A DNA stretch of 43,447 nucleotides from a virus. Within the stretch, counting starts at the first letter, position 1, and each line of letters opens with the position of its first letter. The position numbers were made by a program, and so were the translations under genes. Shown one piece after another: positions 576 to 32,906 of this stretch. The notes under the pieces are model-generated. The model was not told the origin of the DNA. It made no database searches and saw only the letters and a list, made by a program, of their open reading frames with translations. The stretch lies in the IMG/VR virus record IMGVR_UViG_3300044617_000784, positions 1 through 43,447 of that record. The stretch is one strand, 5' to 3'.

Positions 576-767
576 ATGCCAAGGGAATGGAATACTCCCA
601 AAAGGGAACCTTGGAATGCACCGATACATAATATTTTAAAAGCAATAGATAATCACACTCAAGAATATTTCAAGAGTGGTGAAATTTGGCATTTGGAAAA
701 AGCAGATGCTTTAAGAAAATATCTTCACGAATTGAAGACTTGGATTCATAAACAAGAAGGACATTAA
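576..767 (+). CDS. Small unknown protein, 63 aa, plus strand
   Basis: A 63-residue charged, soluble protein with no signal peptide or membrane segment. It contains a central DNHTQEYF and a Lys/His-rich helical C-terminus (ADALRKYLHELKTWIHK). I do not recognise a family. It is one of only two genes on the plus strand and is supported by the late-promoter-like motif placed 20 nt upstream. Its stop overlaps the 3' end of the convergent lysozyme frame by 4 nt. The amphipathic helical end suggests a small binding or structural protein, but no function can be assigned. Confidence 0.65.
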   Translation: MPREWNTPKREPWNAPIHNILKAIDNHTQEYFKSGEIWHLEKADALRKYLHELKTWIHKQEGH

Positions 768-1240
768 GAACTCCAGAGTTTACCCTCAGCACCTCTTCTT
801 CTTAACAATCCAACTTCAACATTACTACCAGGATTGCGATACATTATTAAAGTATTAGGAACATTAGACCATTCTTTATTCCTAAGTACTCTACTTATGG
901 TATTAAAACCGGAAGACCCGTAAAAATTAGCACCAAGATTATAAGCAAAAGATAGAAGAGCTCCTTTTTGATTTTCATTCATTTCATTCCAGTGGGGAAT
1001 TTTTTCTAAAGAAGGAAGAAATTTACTTTCAATATCATACTCTAATAAATCATCTGCTTCGAGTTGAGTAATCTTTTCTCCCAATTTGAATGGTTGTCCA
1101 TTTCTTTTTCTGGTAGAACCCCAACCAATTGTGATTGGAAGATCTCCAGTTAGAGGATCAGGATAAGACTGCAAGTGACATCCTTCAAACTCTTTAATTA
1201 AATCGACACCACACTGAGGAATTTGTGATGTCTTATCTAC
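764..1240 (-). CDS. GH24 lysozyme module, read as the -1 frame extension of the upstream peptidase gene
   Basis: This frame encodes a phage lysozyme (glycoside hydrolase family 24, T4/P22 type) that cuts the MurNAc-GlcNAc bond. The fold signature reads DLIKEFEGC, QSYPDP, ITIGWGST, then NQKGALLSFAYNLG and LLRRRGAEGKLW. The only conventional in-frame start is the TTG at 1172-1174, but it lies after the catalytic Glu of EFEG, so a protein started there would be dead. Upstream the frame stays open to a TGA at about 1250-1252 with no ATG, GTG or TTG. Entry by a -1 slip at 1240-1246 adds 22 residues including the catalytic Glu, giving 158 residues from position 1240 to the stop at 764. The alternatives are a base error in the A6 run or initiation at a rare ATT codon. 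Confidence 0.85.
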   Translation of the reverse strand, partial: VDKTSQIPQCGVDLIKEFEGCHLQSYPDPLTGDLPITIGWGSTRKRNGQPFKLGEKITQLEADDLLEYDIESKFLPSLEKIPHWNEMNENQKGALLSFAYNLGANFYGSSGFNTISRVLRNKEWSNVPNTLIMYRNPGSNVEVGLLRRRGAEGKLWSS

Positions 1241-1246
1241 TTTTTT
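1205..1246 (-). promoter_or_regulatory. Probable programmed -1 ribosomal frameshift signal
   Basis: On the minus strand the last sense codons GTA AAA AAG of the peptidase gene contain the heptamer A AAA AAG in the right phase (1240-1246), directly before the TAG stop (1237-1239). A 7-nt spacer follows (1233-1239), then a 9-bp stem (GACATCACA at 1232-1224 with TGTGGTGTC at 1213-1205, one G-U pair) closed by a 10-nt loop. A AAA AAG is the heptamer used by E. coli dnaX, and this stem distance is typical for -1 frameshifting. A slip joins the peptidase to the lysozyme frame. Confidence 0.75.
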
Positions 1247-1938
1247 ACATCAAAGATTCTACCCCATCCAGTTTTATCTCTTCCATTTTCCAACCAACGA
1301 TGGGTAAGATCAGATCTCTTATATACAGCACCTTTACCGTTGGTTACTGGTCCAGTGTATCCATCATTCAATGATCCATAAGGATCATTTACAATATAAT
1401 CATCACCTTTCTTACCAATCACAACTACCATGTGTCCGCCTGTGGGATTAGATAAAGTCCCCCGATGAAGAATACCAATAACAACAGGTCTTCCAGCGGC
1501 AAGCTCACGATCAAGATCAGCAAAAGAAAGATTGTAACTAAAGTGTGATTTGATACCGTAAGAGTCCAGAACTTTTGTCTGAACTGTGTGGTCAGTCGTA
1601 TCACCGACTGAGAAAACTTTTCTAACGTAGGCATCATCGCCTTTAGGTCCTACTAGAGTGCCAGGTTTGAAATACTCTAATACCATAGCACAGGAAGAGG
1701 AATTACAGGTTCTGTTTGCGTCTCTGTAATTATCTGTCTGTGGAAAATAAGGAACGTTGAGAACTCCAGGAACTGTTGGTTCTGCTTTTGTTCTATAAAT
1801 TCTTACCCAATTAGATTCATCTTCAAGTAAATCTGGTTCTCTACTAGCAAGATCTACTTCAAGTTGTTCAACCGCAGCAACGTGCTTTGGGTTTTTTGGA
1901 TCATAATGTAAAAAGAAATTATGGAGATCTATTCTCAT
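1237..1938 (-). CDS. C39-like cysteine peptidase module of the lysin
   Basis: 233 residues. The second half is a papain-like peptidase of the C39_2 type: Q67 (oxyanion hole), C78 in TCNSSSCAMVL matching the usual CGPASLAMVL, H169 in GGHMVVVIG and D185 in VNDPYG. The first 55 residues are an acidic helical lead-in. Such domains cut peptide bonds, so cleavage of peptidoglycan cross-links is the likely role given the lysozyme directly behind. The ORF terminates at TAG right after the slippery heptamer, so two products are expected: this 233-residue peptidase and a 391-residue peptidase-lysozyme fusion. There is no signal peptide, so release would need a holin. Two AATAAATA late motifs stand 6 and 22 nt before the ATG. 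Confidence 0.75.
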   Translation of the reverse strand: MRIDLHNFFLHYDPKNPKHVAAVEQLEVDLASREPDLLEDESNWVRIYRTKAEPTVPGVLNVPYFPQTDNYRDANRTCNSSSCAMVLEYFKPGTLVGPKGDDAYVRKVFSVGDTTDHTVQTKVLDSYGIKSHFSYNLSFADLDRELAAGRPVVIGILHRGTLSNPTGGHMVVVIGKKGDDYIVNDPYGSLNDGYTGPVTNGKGAVYKRSDLTHRWLENGRDKTGWGRIFDVKK

Positions 1939-16914: not shown

Positions 16915-16939
16915 GACGGACAGGTGCCAATCTGTCCTA

Positions 16940-17012
16940 TGCTCCTTGAGGGGATCGAACCCACCTGAGACCGATTATGAGTCGGTTGCTTTCACCAGAT
17001 AGCTAAAGGAGC
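16940..17012 (-). tRNA. tRNA with anticodon CAT (Met or Ile2)
   Basis: A 73-nt cloverleaf: acceptor GCTCCTT/AAGGAGC, discriminator A, anticodon stem ACCGA/TCGGT with loop CTCATAA. There is one T-T mismatch in the T stem. A CAT anticodon can be elongator Met or, when modified to lysidine, Ile reading ATA; the sequence alone does not settle it. A separate TAT tRNA next door would make the Ile2 role redundant, which slightly favours Met. CCA is not encoded. Confidence 0.9.
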
Positions 17013-17014
17013 AA

Positions 17015-17086
17015 TAGGAGTACTGGGAGTTGAACCCAGACTACCCCGTTATAAGCAGGGCGCTCTAACCATTAAGCTATACTCCC
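17015..17086 (-). tRNA. tRNA-Ile(TAT)
   Basis: A 72-nt cloverleaf: acceptor GGGAGTA/TACTCCT with one G-U, anticodon stem CCCTG/CGGGG, loop CTTATAA, so the anticodon is TAT (reads ATA, Ile). T-arm CTGGGTTCAACTCCCAG is intact. TAT anticodons are rare in bacteria, which normally use a modified CAT tRNA. Two bases separate it from the CAT tRNA. Confidence 0.85.
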
Positions 17087-17093
17087 AAGAAAA

Positions 17094-17321
17094 TCACGAA
17101 CCTTCTTCGTGATCTGTGTGAATGTGTATCAGTTCATCATCCACGATAGATTCTACTACGTACTTTATGGTTTCGTTGTAAGGAACTATTACAGCACTTC
17201 TATTTCCATCTTTGATAATAAAGGATTCACCATTTTCAACTCTTTCTATAAGATTGTCAAAATCTGCTTGAAACTCTTCGACTGTAAATGATTCAAGGTT
17301 TTCTAGTTCTTGCATTTTCAT
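17094..17321 (-). CDS. Phd/YefM-like antitoxin-type protein without visible toxin (75 aa)
   Basis: From ATG 17319-17321 the product has ESFTVEEFQADFDNLIERVE followed by NGESFIIKDGNRSAVIVPYN, which is the Phd/YefM antitoxin N-terminal fold: helix, then the G-E-x-x-I-I/T-x-x-G-x-x-x-A-V-I-V/L beta hairpin that binds operator DNA as a dimer. The C-terminal tail (VVESIVDDELIHIHTDHEEGS) would be the toxin-binding region. No RelE/Doc-like partner is next to it; neighbours are tRNA genes. It could block a host toxin or act as a regulator; both are inference. A longer frame upstream overlaps the tRNA-Pro gene and is not used. Confidence 0.7.
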   Translation of the reverse strand: MKMQELENLESFTVEEFQADFDNLIERVENGESFIIKDGNRSAVIVPYNETIKYVVESIVDDELIHIHTDHEEGS

Positions 17322-17335
17322 AAAGTGATTATGAA

Positions 17336-17409
17336 TCCGAGATGCAGGATTCGAACCTGCGACCCTCTGTTCCCAAAACAGATGCGCTACCAAGCTGCGC
17401 TAATCCCGG
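17336..17409 (-). tRNA. tRNA-Pro(TGG)
   Basis: A 74-nt cloverleaf with acceptor CCGGGAT/ATCTCGG, discriminator A, anticodon stem TCTGT/ACAGA, loop TTTGGGA, and T-arm GCAGGTTCGAATCCTGC. The anticodon TGG reads CCN Pro codons. Confidence 0.95.
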
Positions 17410-17523
17410 TTATTTGTTTTTGTGTACGATCATTATACCAAGGATTGGAACCATAGTCAAGAGGTAACATAAGATGAATAAGAACACTTGATTGTTGAGT
17501 AATACTCCAGCAAAATGTCTCAT
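17410..17523 (-). CDS. 37-residue membrane peptide
   Basis: From the ATG at 17521-17523 the minus strand encodes a hydrophobic peptide (MRHFAGVLLNNQVFLFILCY then LLTMVPILGIMIVHKNK): one long membrane span with a basic end. Its ATG overlaps the TGA of the next gene (ATGA). The stop TAA at 17410-17412 directly touches the tRNA-Pro 5' end. No family recognised. Confidence 0.6.
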   Translation of the reverse strand: MRHFAGVLLNNQVFLFILCYLLTMVPILGIMIVHKNK

Positions 17524-17687
17524 CGTACTTTATCTATAATCGCAATAACACCGTGGGCATAAAAGAAAAGCAGAACCGAACCGATTGTTGCTGATATTAT
17601 TGTAGCAGTTTTATTGTGTTTGTCAATAGCAGCATCGATCATTTCTTGAACTTCAGATCGACTGATAAACTCATCATGAGGTTCCAT
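17520..17687 (-). CDS. 55-residue small membrane protein
   Basis: ATG at 17685-17687. Acidic soluble head (MEPHDEFISRSEVQEMIDAA, then IDKHNK) followed by one membrane helix (TATIISATIGSVLLFFYAHG, then VIAIIDKVR). It overlaps both neighbours by 4 and 1 nt (ATGA and TGATG). The helix-then-anchor layout is like small coiled-coil/membrane phage proteins. No function assigned. Confidence 0.65.
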   Translation of the reverse strand: MEPHDEFISRSEVQEMIDAAIDKHNKTATIISATIGSVLLFFYAHGVIAIIDKVR

Positions 17688-17836
17688 CACTTTTCATCTC
17701 CAAGAAATTTAGCAAGAGGATCTCTTCTGGTCTTTACTATTTCTACTGCTCTCTTGTAGAACATATTATCGGTATTTCCAGAAGACTCGAAAGTTTCTTT
17801 GATACGGACCCAATTATTATAGGTATGTTGGTCCAT
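17687..17836 (-). CDS. 49-residue unknown soluble protein
   Basis: ATG at 17834-17836. The product begins MDQHTYNNWVRIKETFESSG and ends RRDPLAKFLGDEK: a short helical, charged protein. It is the first gene of three overlapping micro-genes between tRNA-Ser and tRNA-Pro. A promoter-like region (TATAAT at about 17860) precedes it, but the spacing to the nearest TTGACA is 21 nt, too long to be sure. Confidence 0.6.
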   Translation of the reverse strand: MDQHTYNNWVRIKETFESSGNTDNMFYKRAVEIVKTRRDPLAKFLGDEK

Positions 17837-17938
17837 GTCTGTGATGCGTATTACTATTATATACTAATCACGAGATTTTGACTGTCAACAAAATGTGTTC
17901 ATCCCGTAACACTGTTGAAGAAAATATTAAGTTTGAAA

Positions 17939-18023
17939 CGGAAAGGGTGGGATTCGAACCCACGGATGCTTTCACATCGCTAGTTTTCAAGACTAGAGCC
18001 TTAAACCACTCGACCACCTTTCC
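17939..18023 (-). tRNA. tRNA-Ser(TGA)
   Basis: An 85-nt class II tRNA with acceptor GGAAAGG/CCTTTCC, discriminator G as in all Ser tRNAs, anticodon stem CTAGT/ACTAG, loop CTTGAAA and a long variable arm (GATGTGAAAGCATC). Its first base is also the last base of the TAG stop of the gene at 18274. Confidence 0.95.
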
Positions 18024-18274
18024 TATCGAATTTCAAAGTCCAGTTTACGAACTTTACGTTGTCTTCTTGCTTCCTGAAAAGCAAGATCTTGAGAGGATAA
18101 CACATTTGTTTTATGTGTTTCCTTTAATGAGTTTAACATAACAACACGAGATAAGTCAAGTGCTGAAATTTTATCTCCACGAATAGTTGCCATATTAGGA
18201 CAACCACAGGTTACTGTCCTAGTTTGATGTCCTGTTATTTCTCTATTGCAATCCTTGCATCTTATAGAAATCAT
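18023..18274 (-). CDS. Small protein with possible zinc ribbon (83 aa)
   Basis: The N-terminus has CKDCNREITGHQTRTVTCGC: two Cys pairs (C6/C9 and C23/C25) in a small zinc-ribbon-like arrangement. A helical, basic C-terminus follows (LSSQDLAFQEARRQRKVRKL). Its start lies 6 nt behind the Dps stop. The stop overlaps the tRNA-Ser gene by one base, so the mRNA is probably processed there. Function unknown. Confidence 0.7.
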   Translation of the reverse strand: MISIRCKDCNREITGHQTRTVTCGCPNMATIRGDKISALDLSRVVMLNSLKETHKTNVLSSQDLAFQEARRQRKVRKLDFEIR

Positions 18275-18277
18275 TTT

Positions 18278-18715
18278 TCATTCCTTTAAATACGACCTTA
18301 ACATCCAAACAAATTTACCATGAGTTTCAATTAAATCTTGAGCGATATTTGAAGTAGTGTATTGCTTTGTGGTTTCTGATTCTTCTACAACTGCAGTCAG
18401 AAGTTCAATTATTTTTTTATTATCAGAAAGCAATTGAGATACCATCAGTTTATCGGTTGGGTTTGATGCTGCTTCTGGAATCTCAGATGTTTCAACTACT
18501 CTACTGATTGGTGAGATAGCTTTCATACGAAGATATCTCATATGCTCAGTCAGTCTATCTAGTTCAGTTTGCATCGTGGTGTACTGATCACCGAATGCTT
18601 CATGAAGTTGGAAGAAATCAGAACCAACTACATTCCAGTGATACACCCATGTTTTCTGCATTAAACAGAAAAGACTTGTTTGTGCTTTATGTAATGATTG
18701 ATATAACTCGTCCAT
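18278..18715 (-). CDS. Dps-like mini-ferritin
   Basis: 145 residues, the right size for a Dps subunit. The interfacial ferroxidase residues are in place: H26 in YHWNVVG, H38 in FFQLHEAF (H-x11-H spacing as in E. coli Dps), then D53 and E57 in ELDRLTEHM. The rest is a four-helix bundle ending HGKFVWMLRSYLKE, typical of the family. Dps stores iron, removes peroxide and covers DNA. A CATAAATA late motif 13 nt upstream suggests it is made late. It may protect phage DNA from oxidative damage caused by damaged photosystems; that reason is inference. Confidence 0.88.
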   Translation of the reverse strand: MDELYQSLHKAQTSLFCLMQKTWVYHWNVVGSDFFQLHEAFGDQYTTMQTELDRLTEHMRYLRMKAISPISRVVETSEIPEAASNPTDKLMVSQLLSDNKKIIELLTAVVEESETTKQYTTSNIAQDLIETHGKFVWMLRSYLKE

Positions 18716-18728
18716 TATCTTTTTGAAG

Positions 18729-18736
18729 TATTTATG
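18729..18736 (-). promoter_or_regulatory. Late promoter motif CATAAATA before dps
   Basis: Minus-strand CATAAATA ends 13 nt before the dps ATG; the same 13-nt spacing occurs before the 51-aa gene at 40204. Confidence 0.5.
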
Positions 18737-18737
18737 A

Positions 18738-18810
18738 TGGGAGCAGAGGGATTCGAACCCCCGACATTCTGCGTGTAAAGCAGACGCTGCTACCGCTGAG
18801 CTATGCTCCC
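18738..18810 (-). tRNA. tRNA-Val(TAC)
   Basis: A 73-nt cloverleaf with acceptor GGGAGCA/TGCTCCC, discriminator A, anticodon stem TCTGC/GCAGA, loop TTTACAC, T-arm with GGTTCGAATCC. The anticodon TAC reads GTN Val codons. Confidence 0.95.
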
Positions 18811-18813
18811 ATT

Positions 18814-18885
18814 TCCTCTGTCTGGGAATCGAACCCAGTTTCTATGTGGATTGTCACCCTGTCCTTACCAATAGACTACCAGAGG
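18814..18885 (-). tRNA. tRNA-like sequence with aberrant anticodon arm
   Basis: 72 nt in the middle of the tRNA cluster, with a 6-bp acceptor CCTCTG/CAGAGG, a D-arm GTCT...GGAC containing GGTAA, and a perfect T-arm CTGGGTTCGATTCCCAG. The anticodon region (GGGTGACAATCC) can form only a 3-bp stem around a 6-nt loop TGACAA; five normal pairs are absent. If read as a loop, the anticodon might be GAC (Val), but I cannot assign it. It is probably a degenerate or unusual tRNA. Confidence 0.55.
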
Positions 18886-18887
18886 TA

Positions 18888-18959
18888 CTCCCCCTCCTGG
18901 ATTCGAACCAGGGACCCTACGATTAACAGTCGTTTGCGCTACCGCTGCGCCAAGAGGGA
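18888..18959 (-). tRNA. tRNA-Asn(GTT)
   Basis: A 72-nt cloverleaf with acceptor TCCCTCT/AGGGGGA (one G-U), discriminator G, anticodon stem with ACGA/TCGT, loop CTGTTAA and T-arm CCTGGTTCGAATCCAGG. The anticodon is GTT. Confidence 0.95.
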
Positions 18960-18979
18960 ATAAGAACCCGAAGGTTCAG

Positions 18980-19051
18980 AGCGGAATACCGGATTCGAAC
19001 CGGTGACATTCAACTTGGAAGGATGACGTTCTACCACTGAACTAATTCCGC
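18980..19051 (-). tRNA. tRNA-Gly(TCC)
   Basis: A 72-nt cloverleaf with acceptor GCGGAAT/ATTCCGC, discriminator T, loop CTTCCAA and T-arm ACCGGTTCGAATCCGGT. The anticodon TCC reads GGA/GGG. Confidence 0.95.
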
Positions 19052-19137
19052 ATTTGATGGAGTAAGTGTGATATACCTCATAAGGATATAACAGTGACTT
19101 ACCCTCTATCACTTTTATATATGGAGATAAACTCCAA

Positions 19138-19211
19138 CGACTCAAGTAGGACTCGAACCTACGACCGACTGCTTAGAAGGCAGTTGCTCTATCCATCTGA
19201 GCTATTGAGTC
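19138..19211 (-). tRNA. tRNA-Arg(TCT)
   Basis: A 74-nt cloverleaf with acceptor GACTCAA/TTGAGTC, discriminator G, anticodon stem ACTGC/GCAGT, loop CTTCTAA, and T-arm GTAGGTTCGAGTCCTAC. The anticodon TCT reads AGA/AGG, codons that are rare in many cyanobacteria. The 86 nt between this gene and tRNA-Gly hold no gene that I can support. Confidence 0.95.
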
Positions 19212-19228
19212 ATTATGTTTTAAGTATA

Positions 19229-32821: not shown

Positions 32822-32823
32822 AA

Positions 32824-32896
32824 TGGAGAATAGGAGACTCGAACTCCTGACCTCCTGAATGCAAATCAGGCGCACTACCAACTGTGCTAATTCCCC
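32824..32896 (-). tRNA. tRNA-Ala(TGC)
   Basis: A 73-nt cloverleaf with acceptor GGGGAAT/ATTCTCC (one G-U), discriminator A, anticodon stem CCTGA/TCAGG, loop TTTGCAT, T-arm CAGGAGTTCGAGTCTCCTA. It lies alone, 13 kb from the main tRNA cluster, between two late genes, with its own promoter at 32907-32935. Confidence 0.95.
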
Positions 32897-32906
32897 AAAT
32901 ATAAAG

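Follow-up and report, generated by a model that had tools for sequence, protein, structure and literature searches.

How a cyanophage could express a lysozyme domain that has no recognizable start codon of its own is the question raised by one locus on the window, the whole 43,447-nt stretch of DNA that we analysed (IMG/VR virus record IMGVR_UViG_3300044617_000784, positions 1 to 43,447). An initial annotation had proposed that a C39-type peptidase gene here ends in a −1 frameshift signal, beyond which the shifted frame continues into a GH24 lysozyme. The anatomy behind this proposal was reproduced in full (Table 1): the peptidase stop falls directly after an in-phase A AAA AAG, base for base as claimed, the spacer, stem and loop lie where they had been placed, and both predicted product sizes were recomputed from the sequence. 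The codons at the junction read GTA AAA AAG TAG, with the heptamer in X XXY YYZ phase, and the stem is formed by the arms GACATCACA (1232-1224) and TGTGGTGTC (1213-1205), whose 9 bp include one G-U pair. The lysin is flanked by ORFs at 3-467, 2001-2108, 2332-2631 and 2727-2936, presumably a psbA-like fragment, two small high-light-inducible-like ORFs and a ferredoxin-like ORF. Nine tRNA genes were found on the window (16939-19212 and 32823-32897), eight of them clustered and none for lysine.

Table 1. Coordinates of the lysin gene and its junction elements on the window.
Feature	Position	Strand	Remarks
Whole frameshift gene	764..1938	(-)	predicted products of 233 aa (peptidase) and 391 aa (peptidase-lysozyme)
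C39-like cysteine peptidase ORF, 0 frame, 233 aa	1237..1938	(-)	ATG 1938-1936, stop TAG 1239-1237; PF13529 Peptidase_C39_2
Slippery heptamer A AAA AAG, in phase	1240..1246	(-)	direct sequence reading
Spacer TAGATAA, 7 nt	1233..1239	(-)	opens with the 0-frame stop TAG
Presumed stimulatory stem-loop	1205..1232	(-)	9 bp, 10-nt loop, -9.8 kcal/mol
GH24 (T4-type) phage lysozyme, -1 frame, 158 aa	764..1240	(-)	PF00959; stop 766-764

Both domains were recognized by Pfam, the peptidase as Peptidase_C39_2 (E 5.3e-14, 53.4 bits, cut-off 24) and the lysozyme as Phage_lysozyme (E 2.7e-21, 76.6 bits, cut-off 22.3). A search with the predicted fold of the peptidase (mean pLDDT 76) found 17 chains at E up to 0.001, mostly C39 and papain-like peptidases; these matches are modest, with TM-scores by query length of only 0.37-0.49. 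A search of solved structures with the peptidase sequence returned none matching at E 0.1. Residues C83, H169 and D185, the presumed catalytic Cys, His and Asp, were invariant across 19 aligned sequences. For the lysozyme, the claim that it lies in the −1 frame without a usable start before its catalytic Glu agreed with our count of zero ATG, GTG or TTG codons between the upstream stop in that frame and the Glu; the earliest start listed for the frame, a TTG at 1174, is already past this residue. With no canonical start for the domain, frameshifting would be its route.

Relatives were collected in four scans of viral contigs by peptidase alignment, each retaining the best 80 of a longer list (428, 499, 468 and 454). 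The scan matches, named phage records and the window made up 319 sequences, a copy of the window (L012) being excluded. The peptidase and its stop are present in 314 of these (L010, L114, L189, L234 and L251 were dropped), and removal of identical junctions left 175 distinct peptidase junctions. Since only the best 80 of each list were sampled, the shares reported here are not population frequencies and, since all the sequences are related, the counts are not independent events. At 91 of the 175 junctions, from isolates as well as environmental contigs, the lysozyme follows a slippery heptamer that is in phase, and is encoded in the −1 frame. The −1 frame and heptamer are accompanied by an ATGA overlap at six junctions, the ATGA overlap occurs without a heptamer at 23, and peptidase and lysozyme are fused in frame at 24. 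No lysozyme match was found within 400 nt downstream at 29, a class that includes S-CREM1, with its lysozyme upstream, and DSL-LC02, with its lysozyme further on; two junctions (L004, L304) were classed as other. Conservation of heptamer, stem and frame relation in related cyanophages, which the initial annotation had proposed as a check, was thus found for frame and heptamer at 91/175 junctions, with a hairpin that is strong in most of them.

We also scanned from the lysozyme side, classifying 70 loci after ten duplicates were removed from the best 80 of 581 relatives. This returned 19 known frameshift types and three new ones, the latter not counted in the 91, together with eight ATGA types, all already known and two of them with the heptamer. 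A heptamer was lacking at 31 of the 70 loci (18 with the lysozyme in the −1 frame, seven in +1 and six in the same frame), and the peptidase was absent at nine. Many of the heptamer-less loci resemble DSL-LC03, in which the lysozyme is a separate gene, though not each was checked.

The heptamer of the 91 frameshift junctions is A AAA AAG in 88 cases and T TTT TTT in three. In the accessible part of one study (PMC4066793), A_AA.A_AA.G is among the most efficient frameshift motifs in E. coli, and H_HH.U_UU.Y, which covers U_UU.U_UU.U, is listed as efficient. The base preceding AAA AAG is A in 88/88, supplied as the third base of GTA, GCA, ACA, ATA or GAA; elsewhere in these genes 964 of 2921 Val and Ala codons end in A. 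The peptidase bodies at the 91 loci, 20,660 further codon positions in all, contain no in-phase A AAA AAG, and no in-phase heptamer of these kinds was detected near the peptidase end in the 29 loci without a lysozyme match within 400 nt downstream. The 0-frame stop follows the heptamer directly at 79 of the 91 junctions, and its identity is TAG at 74, TAA at 10 and TGA at seven. We noted that 39 other, hand-picked genes of the window end in TGA (26), TAA (10) or TAG (3), as against TAG at 74/91 at this site. TAG may be preferred here for the Val-Glu that the −1 frame encodes, or because it favours slipping.

The hairpin of the window is by itself only moderately convincing. Folded alone, the stem has a z of −2.8 at the energy given in Table 1; over the 60-nt stretch a different fold wins (z −1.3), and against the strictest null, synonymous recoding, the hairpin is unremarkable (z −0.24). 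Given this weak score, single-locus folding was dropped as the main argument, and the case rests on the relatives. Stimulatory structures start 5-8 nt downstream, as stated in the part of PMC4066793 available. The 60-nt folds behind the heptamer had a mean z of −2.95 across the 91 frameshift loci, below −2 in 65 and above it in 26. Mean values were −0.75 for the ATGA class (5/23 below −2), −0.50 for the no-lysozyme class (5/29) and −0.69 for the fused class (3/24), whose control stretch was counted from where the peptidase's BLAST match ends instead of from a heptamer; the hairpin signal was absent from the loci with both heptamer and ATGA (mean z −0.18, 0/6). An uninterrupted helix of at least 9 bp was present at 75/91 frameshift loci. 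At seven sites elsewhere in these genes the share was 13-34%, and it was 43% in the ATGA, 17% in the no-lysozyme, 8% in the fused and 0% in the heptamer-plus-ATGA class. The longest such helix averaged 11.0 bp at the frameshift loci versus 6.8-8.0 bp at the seven other gene positions, and 8.6, 7.3, 6.3 and 6.3 bp in these four classes, respectively. When the null was synonymous recoding, which keeps the protein, the 91 loci still had a mean z of −2.18, with 50 below −2; further into the lysozyme, the means were −0.44, −0.13 and +0.07.

Exchange of arms between loci provided evidence that the pairing itself is conserved. The 5´ arm paired with its own downstream region at −16.3 kcal/mol, at −9.8 when the downstream region came from any other locus, and at −8.7 when it came from a locus whose arms are dissimilar. 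Native and swapped arms differed by at most 0.6 in the four control classes (own and foreign, respectively: ATGA, −5.9 and −6.5; no-lysozyme, −6.6 and −6.8; fused, −9.0 and −8.4; heptamer plus ATGA, −10.4 and −9.8 kcal/mol). A cluster-based version also favoured the native arms (−14.4 against −9.7 when swapped, permutation p 0.0005), but single linkage left it with seven clusters, and the swaps between dissimilar loci took its place. In one gap-free stem family of 22 sequences, selected by helix and common layout with L068 and L207 added by hand, 98.3% of cells were paired, a level reached in 0/500 shuffles, and 30-52% were still paired when the arms were slid by 1 to 3 columns. Four pairs of this family have changed on both sides; its further pair types were unexceptional (50/500 shuffles). 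The 91 loci carry 70 different arm pairs, so the hairpin is kept as a structure rather than as a sequence. In one locus, L017, no structure forms within 60 nt, and a 10-bp partner arm lies beyond a 44-nt loop. A downstream RNA structure conserved by pairing is thus established for the family, with moderate to weak support from the window alone.

We conclude, at a probability of roughly 0.92, that the gene encodes a two-domain cyanophage endolysin produced through programmed −1 ribosomal frameshifting, as a peptidase of 233 aa and a peptidase-lysozyme of 391 aa; the slip itself is inferred, without protein, ribosome-profiling or reporter evidence. Most ribosomes would terminate at the UAG that follows A AAA AAG, yielding the free peptidase. 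Others would be held up by the hairpin downstream while lysine tRNAs occupy the heptamer, move back by one base and read into the lysozyme, giving the longer product. The occurrence and efficiency of the slip, the synthesis of both products, their attack on host peptidoglycan and the importance of their ratio are all inferred, and the "fixed ratio" of two lysin forms put forward in the initial annotation is likewise an inference, as no efficiency is known.

If RNA polymerase slipped in the run and inserted one A, part of the mRNA would carry the two frames fused, just as though the ribosome had shifted by −1. Such slippage has in its favour the A6 run (T8 in S-CAM7) and the two relatives that carry A7 in their DNA and are fused; AAAAAAA and UUUUUUU are also named as slippage-prone in the accessible part of PMC4066793. 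The run is, however, A6 at 87 and A7 at only one of the 88 A AAA AAG junctions, not lengthened as slippage would favour, and slippage requires neither a phased heptamer nor base-paired RNA a few nucleotides downstream, both of which are conserved. We therefore consider it improbable. By the same counts, a run of five or seven A, which had been named as grounds for refuting the frameshift signal, is not what the relatives show. The two fused sequences with seven A (L146, L162) retain the hairpin sequence and have kin of the frameshift type; whether their seventh A would be a natural change or an assembly error is not resolvable from these data.

Separate synthesis of the lysozyme by internal initiation or stop-start coupling, with the heptamer incidental, finds models in the 23 junctions with ATGA and no heptamer and in the six with both, and 42 of the 91 frameshift loci have some in-frame ATG, GTG or TTG before the catalytic Glu (an ATG in six), so that internal initiation is not excluded at those loci. 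Yet ATG is absent before the Glu in 85/91, and all three codons are absent in 49/91, including the window. The hairpin signal is, moreover, present on average where ATGA is missing and absent on average where ATGA is present. Relatives with a normal lysozyme start and no conserved heptamer or stem had been named as another refutation; the 23 heptamer-less ATGA overlaps lack the hairpin signal on average, as the mean z of −0.75 indicates, and do not overturn the frameshift reading. On this evidence, we give a separately initiated lysozyme slightly less credence even than polymerase slippage. At five of the 91 loci (L014, L063, L241, L242 and L299) a −1-frame GTG overlaps the stop, and translation might also restart there.

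The lack of a canonical start at 49 of the 91 loci, and the public annotation of only C-terminal fragments in S-PM2 and S-CAM7, could also be taken to mean that the lysozyme frame is a decaying, unexpressed remnant. The startless domain is, however, under purifying selection, with a median omega of 0.19 when the window is compared with 58 relatives and of 0.17 over 1517 pairs. At the 88 loci where the DNA extends to the lysozyme stop, the frame is open throughout and none is below 130 codons, and the D and T of what we take to be the GH24 catalytic set (E-D-T) are kept in 91/91; presence of the E was demanded by the search pattern itself and is not independent. The selection test makes a remnant very unlikely. 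That errors of sequencing or assembly, or a recent mutation, split a fused gene, as the 24 in-frame fusions among 175 junctions (two through a seventh A) might have suggested, is already refuted by the comparison, given a frame relation common to 91 distinct junctions, isolates included, hairpins that covary and a lysozyme still under selection.

The initial annotation had reasoned that fused relatives would point to a base error or recent mutation. Fused relatives do exist and temper the reading; 22 of the 24 form their own branch together with the S-CAM7 type, and the other two carry the seventh A. Mapped on the peptidase tree of 175 rows, the six classes require 34 changes, compared with 77.6 when labels are shuffled. 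The three S-CAM7 isolates read GTT TTT TTT CCA CAG TAG, with a T8 run, and in L007 this stretch forms a fold of 13 bp interrupted by a single bulge. The S-CAM7 type is nested within the fused genes, a placement that a careful 49-row tree repeats with starred branches; the 24 rows labelled "prf" in that tree include three (L001, L004, L009) that are not of the frameshift class. The alternative to this nesting was not rejected by the AU test (p 0.081), which leaves a second origin suggested but unproven; judged from these sequences, an independent origin of the S-CAM7 signal is possible to likely.

Among the fused genes, ACG-2014f encodes peptidase and lysozyme in one uninterrupted ORF of 405 aa. 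An in-frame GCA AAA AAG is present in 9/9 sequences of ACG-2014f and its nearest contigs, and a hairpin at about 2020-2053 of L006, the ACG-2014f fused ORF, folds at −13.7 kcal/mol (z −3.3); an isolate of this type (L323) has lost the outermost pair and kept the others. Within GCA AAA AAG TCT GAG, the −1 frame meets a stop one codon past the heptamer, and a slip here could release the peptidase, a reversed polarity. Synonymous conservation of the region is not exceptional (82 of 392 windows lower, three ties). A wider hypothesis is that cyanophages balance free peptidase against peptidase-lysozyme by recoding that evolved repeatedly: the main branch would use A AAA AAG, the S-CAM7 type T TTT TTT with a hairpin of unrelated sequence, and ACG-2014f, which normally makes the fusion, a signal of reversed polarity. 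We regard this as tentative and rather doubtful.

A scan of genome contigs found seven homologues, including Arthrospira, Laspinema and Roseofilum at 58-62% identity. In the cyanobacterial contigs L328, L329, L331, L332 and L333, the peptidase (58-63% identity) is alone or behind other sequence. We considered GH19 as a cyanobacterial partner domain and rejected it, as neither the relevant part of L332 nor the neighbouring ORF of L331 had a Pfam match. These C39-like proteins belong to the same peptidase family with other partners, and S-CREM1 joins this family to a lysozyme in the reverse domain order; no in-phase A AAA AAR or T TTT TTY was present at the seven ends examined among S-CREM1 and the cellular homologues. 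A further counterpart is the fused protein of ACG-2014f and PHROG 3617, which has the same two domains in the same order as the window (peptidase at profile positions 1-235, lysozyme at 243-405) but as a single uninterrupted ORF.

The frameshifting mechanism is well known. Cassettes of the dnaX and IS911/IS3 types likewise combine A_AAA_AAG, its phase, a spacer and a downstream hairpin. The dnaX frameshift shortens its product, whereas here, in a phage lysis gene, the slip would lengthen the product by a second enzyme. The cyanophage loci also differ from these cassettes upstream: a Shine-Dalgarno-like GGAG, GAGG or AGGA was found at only 14/91, leaving an upstream stimulator of this kind unsupported, and the GGGG present at 87/91 lies within codons of a conserved GWGR protein motif. 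Among phage genes, Shearman et al. in 1994 reportedly described a Lactococcus phage lysin in two overlapping genes. The tail assembly chaperone (lambda G/GT type) is the established phage −1 frameshift adding a C-terminal part, in a structural-assembly gene rather than a lysis enzyme; such chaperones account for 2397 of the 2476 joined frameshift genes in one set, and that study also lists lysins as "known to contain a frameshift", citing a range of references of which Shearman et al. is the first (accessible part of PMC10885494). Mycobacteriophage Ms6 LysA also yields two forms (384 and 241 aa) from one lysin gene, the second from an in-frame embedded gene, whereas here a downstream frame is added (accessible part of PMC3111421). 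No frameshifted cyanophage lysin was described in the titles and abstract openings of the open PMC literature that we found. A broadly conserved frameshift joining two peptidoglycan-hydrolase-type domains looks like a new use of a known mechanism, and its breadth and perhaps its second origin look new as well.

The cultured isolates show what this changes for annotation. S-PM2 and its deletion-mutant record carry GCA AAA AAG TAA with the hairpin, and S-SRM01 has retained the heptamer but has an ATGA overlap. The S-PM2 and S-CAM7 lysins are annotated publicly as C-terminal fragments of 72 to 90 aa; these entries need correction, as both phages encode a full lysozyme. The same junction provides a natural series of frameshift, stop-start overlap, in-frame fusion and separate genes, which lets frameshifting be studied as it is gained and lost and makes it testable why a free peptidase is wanted alongside the fusion. 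If a lysis enzyme with two activities does depend on recoding, lysis by marine and freshwater cyanophages would be tunable by translation.
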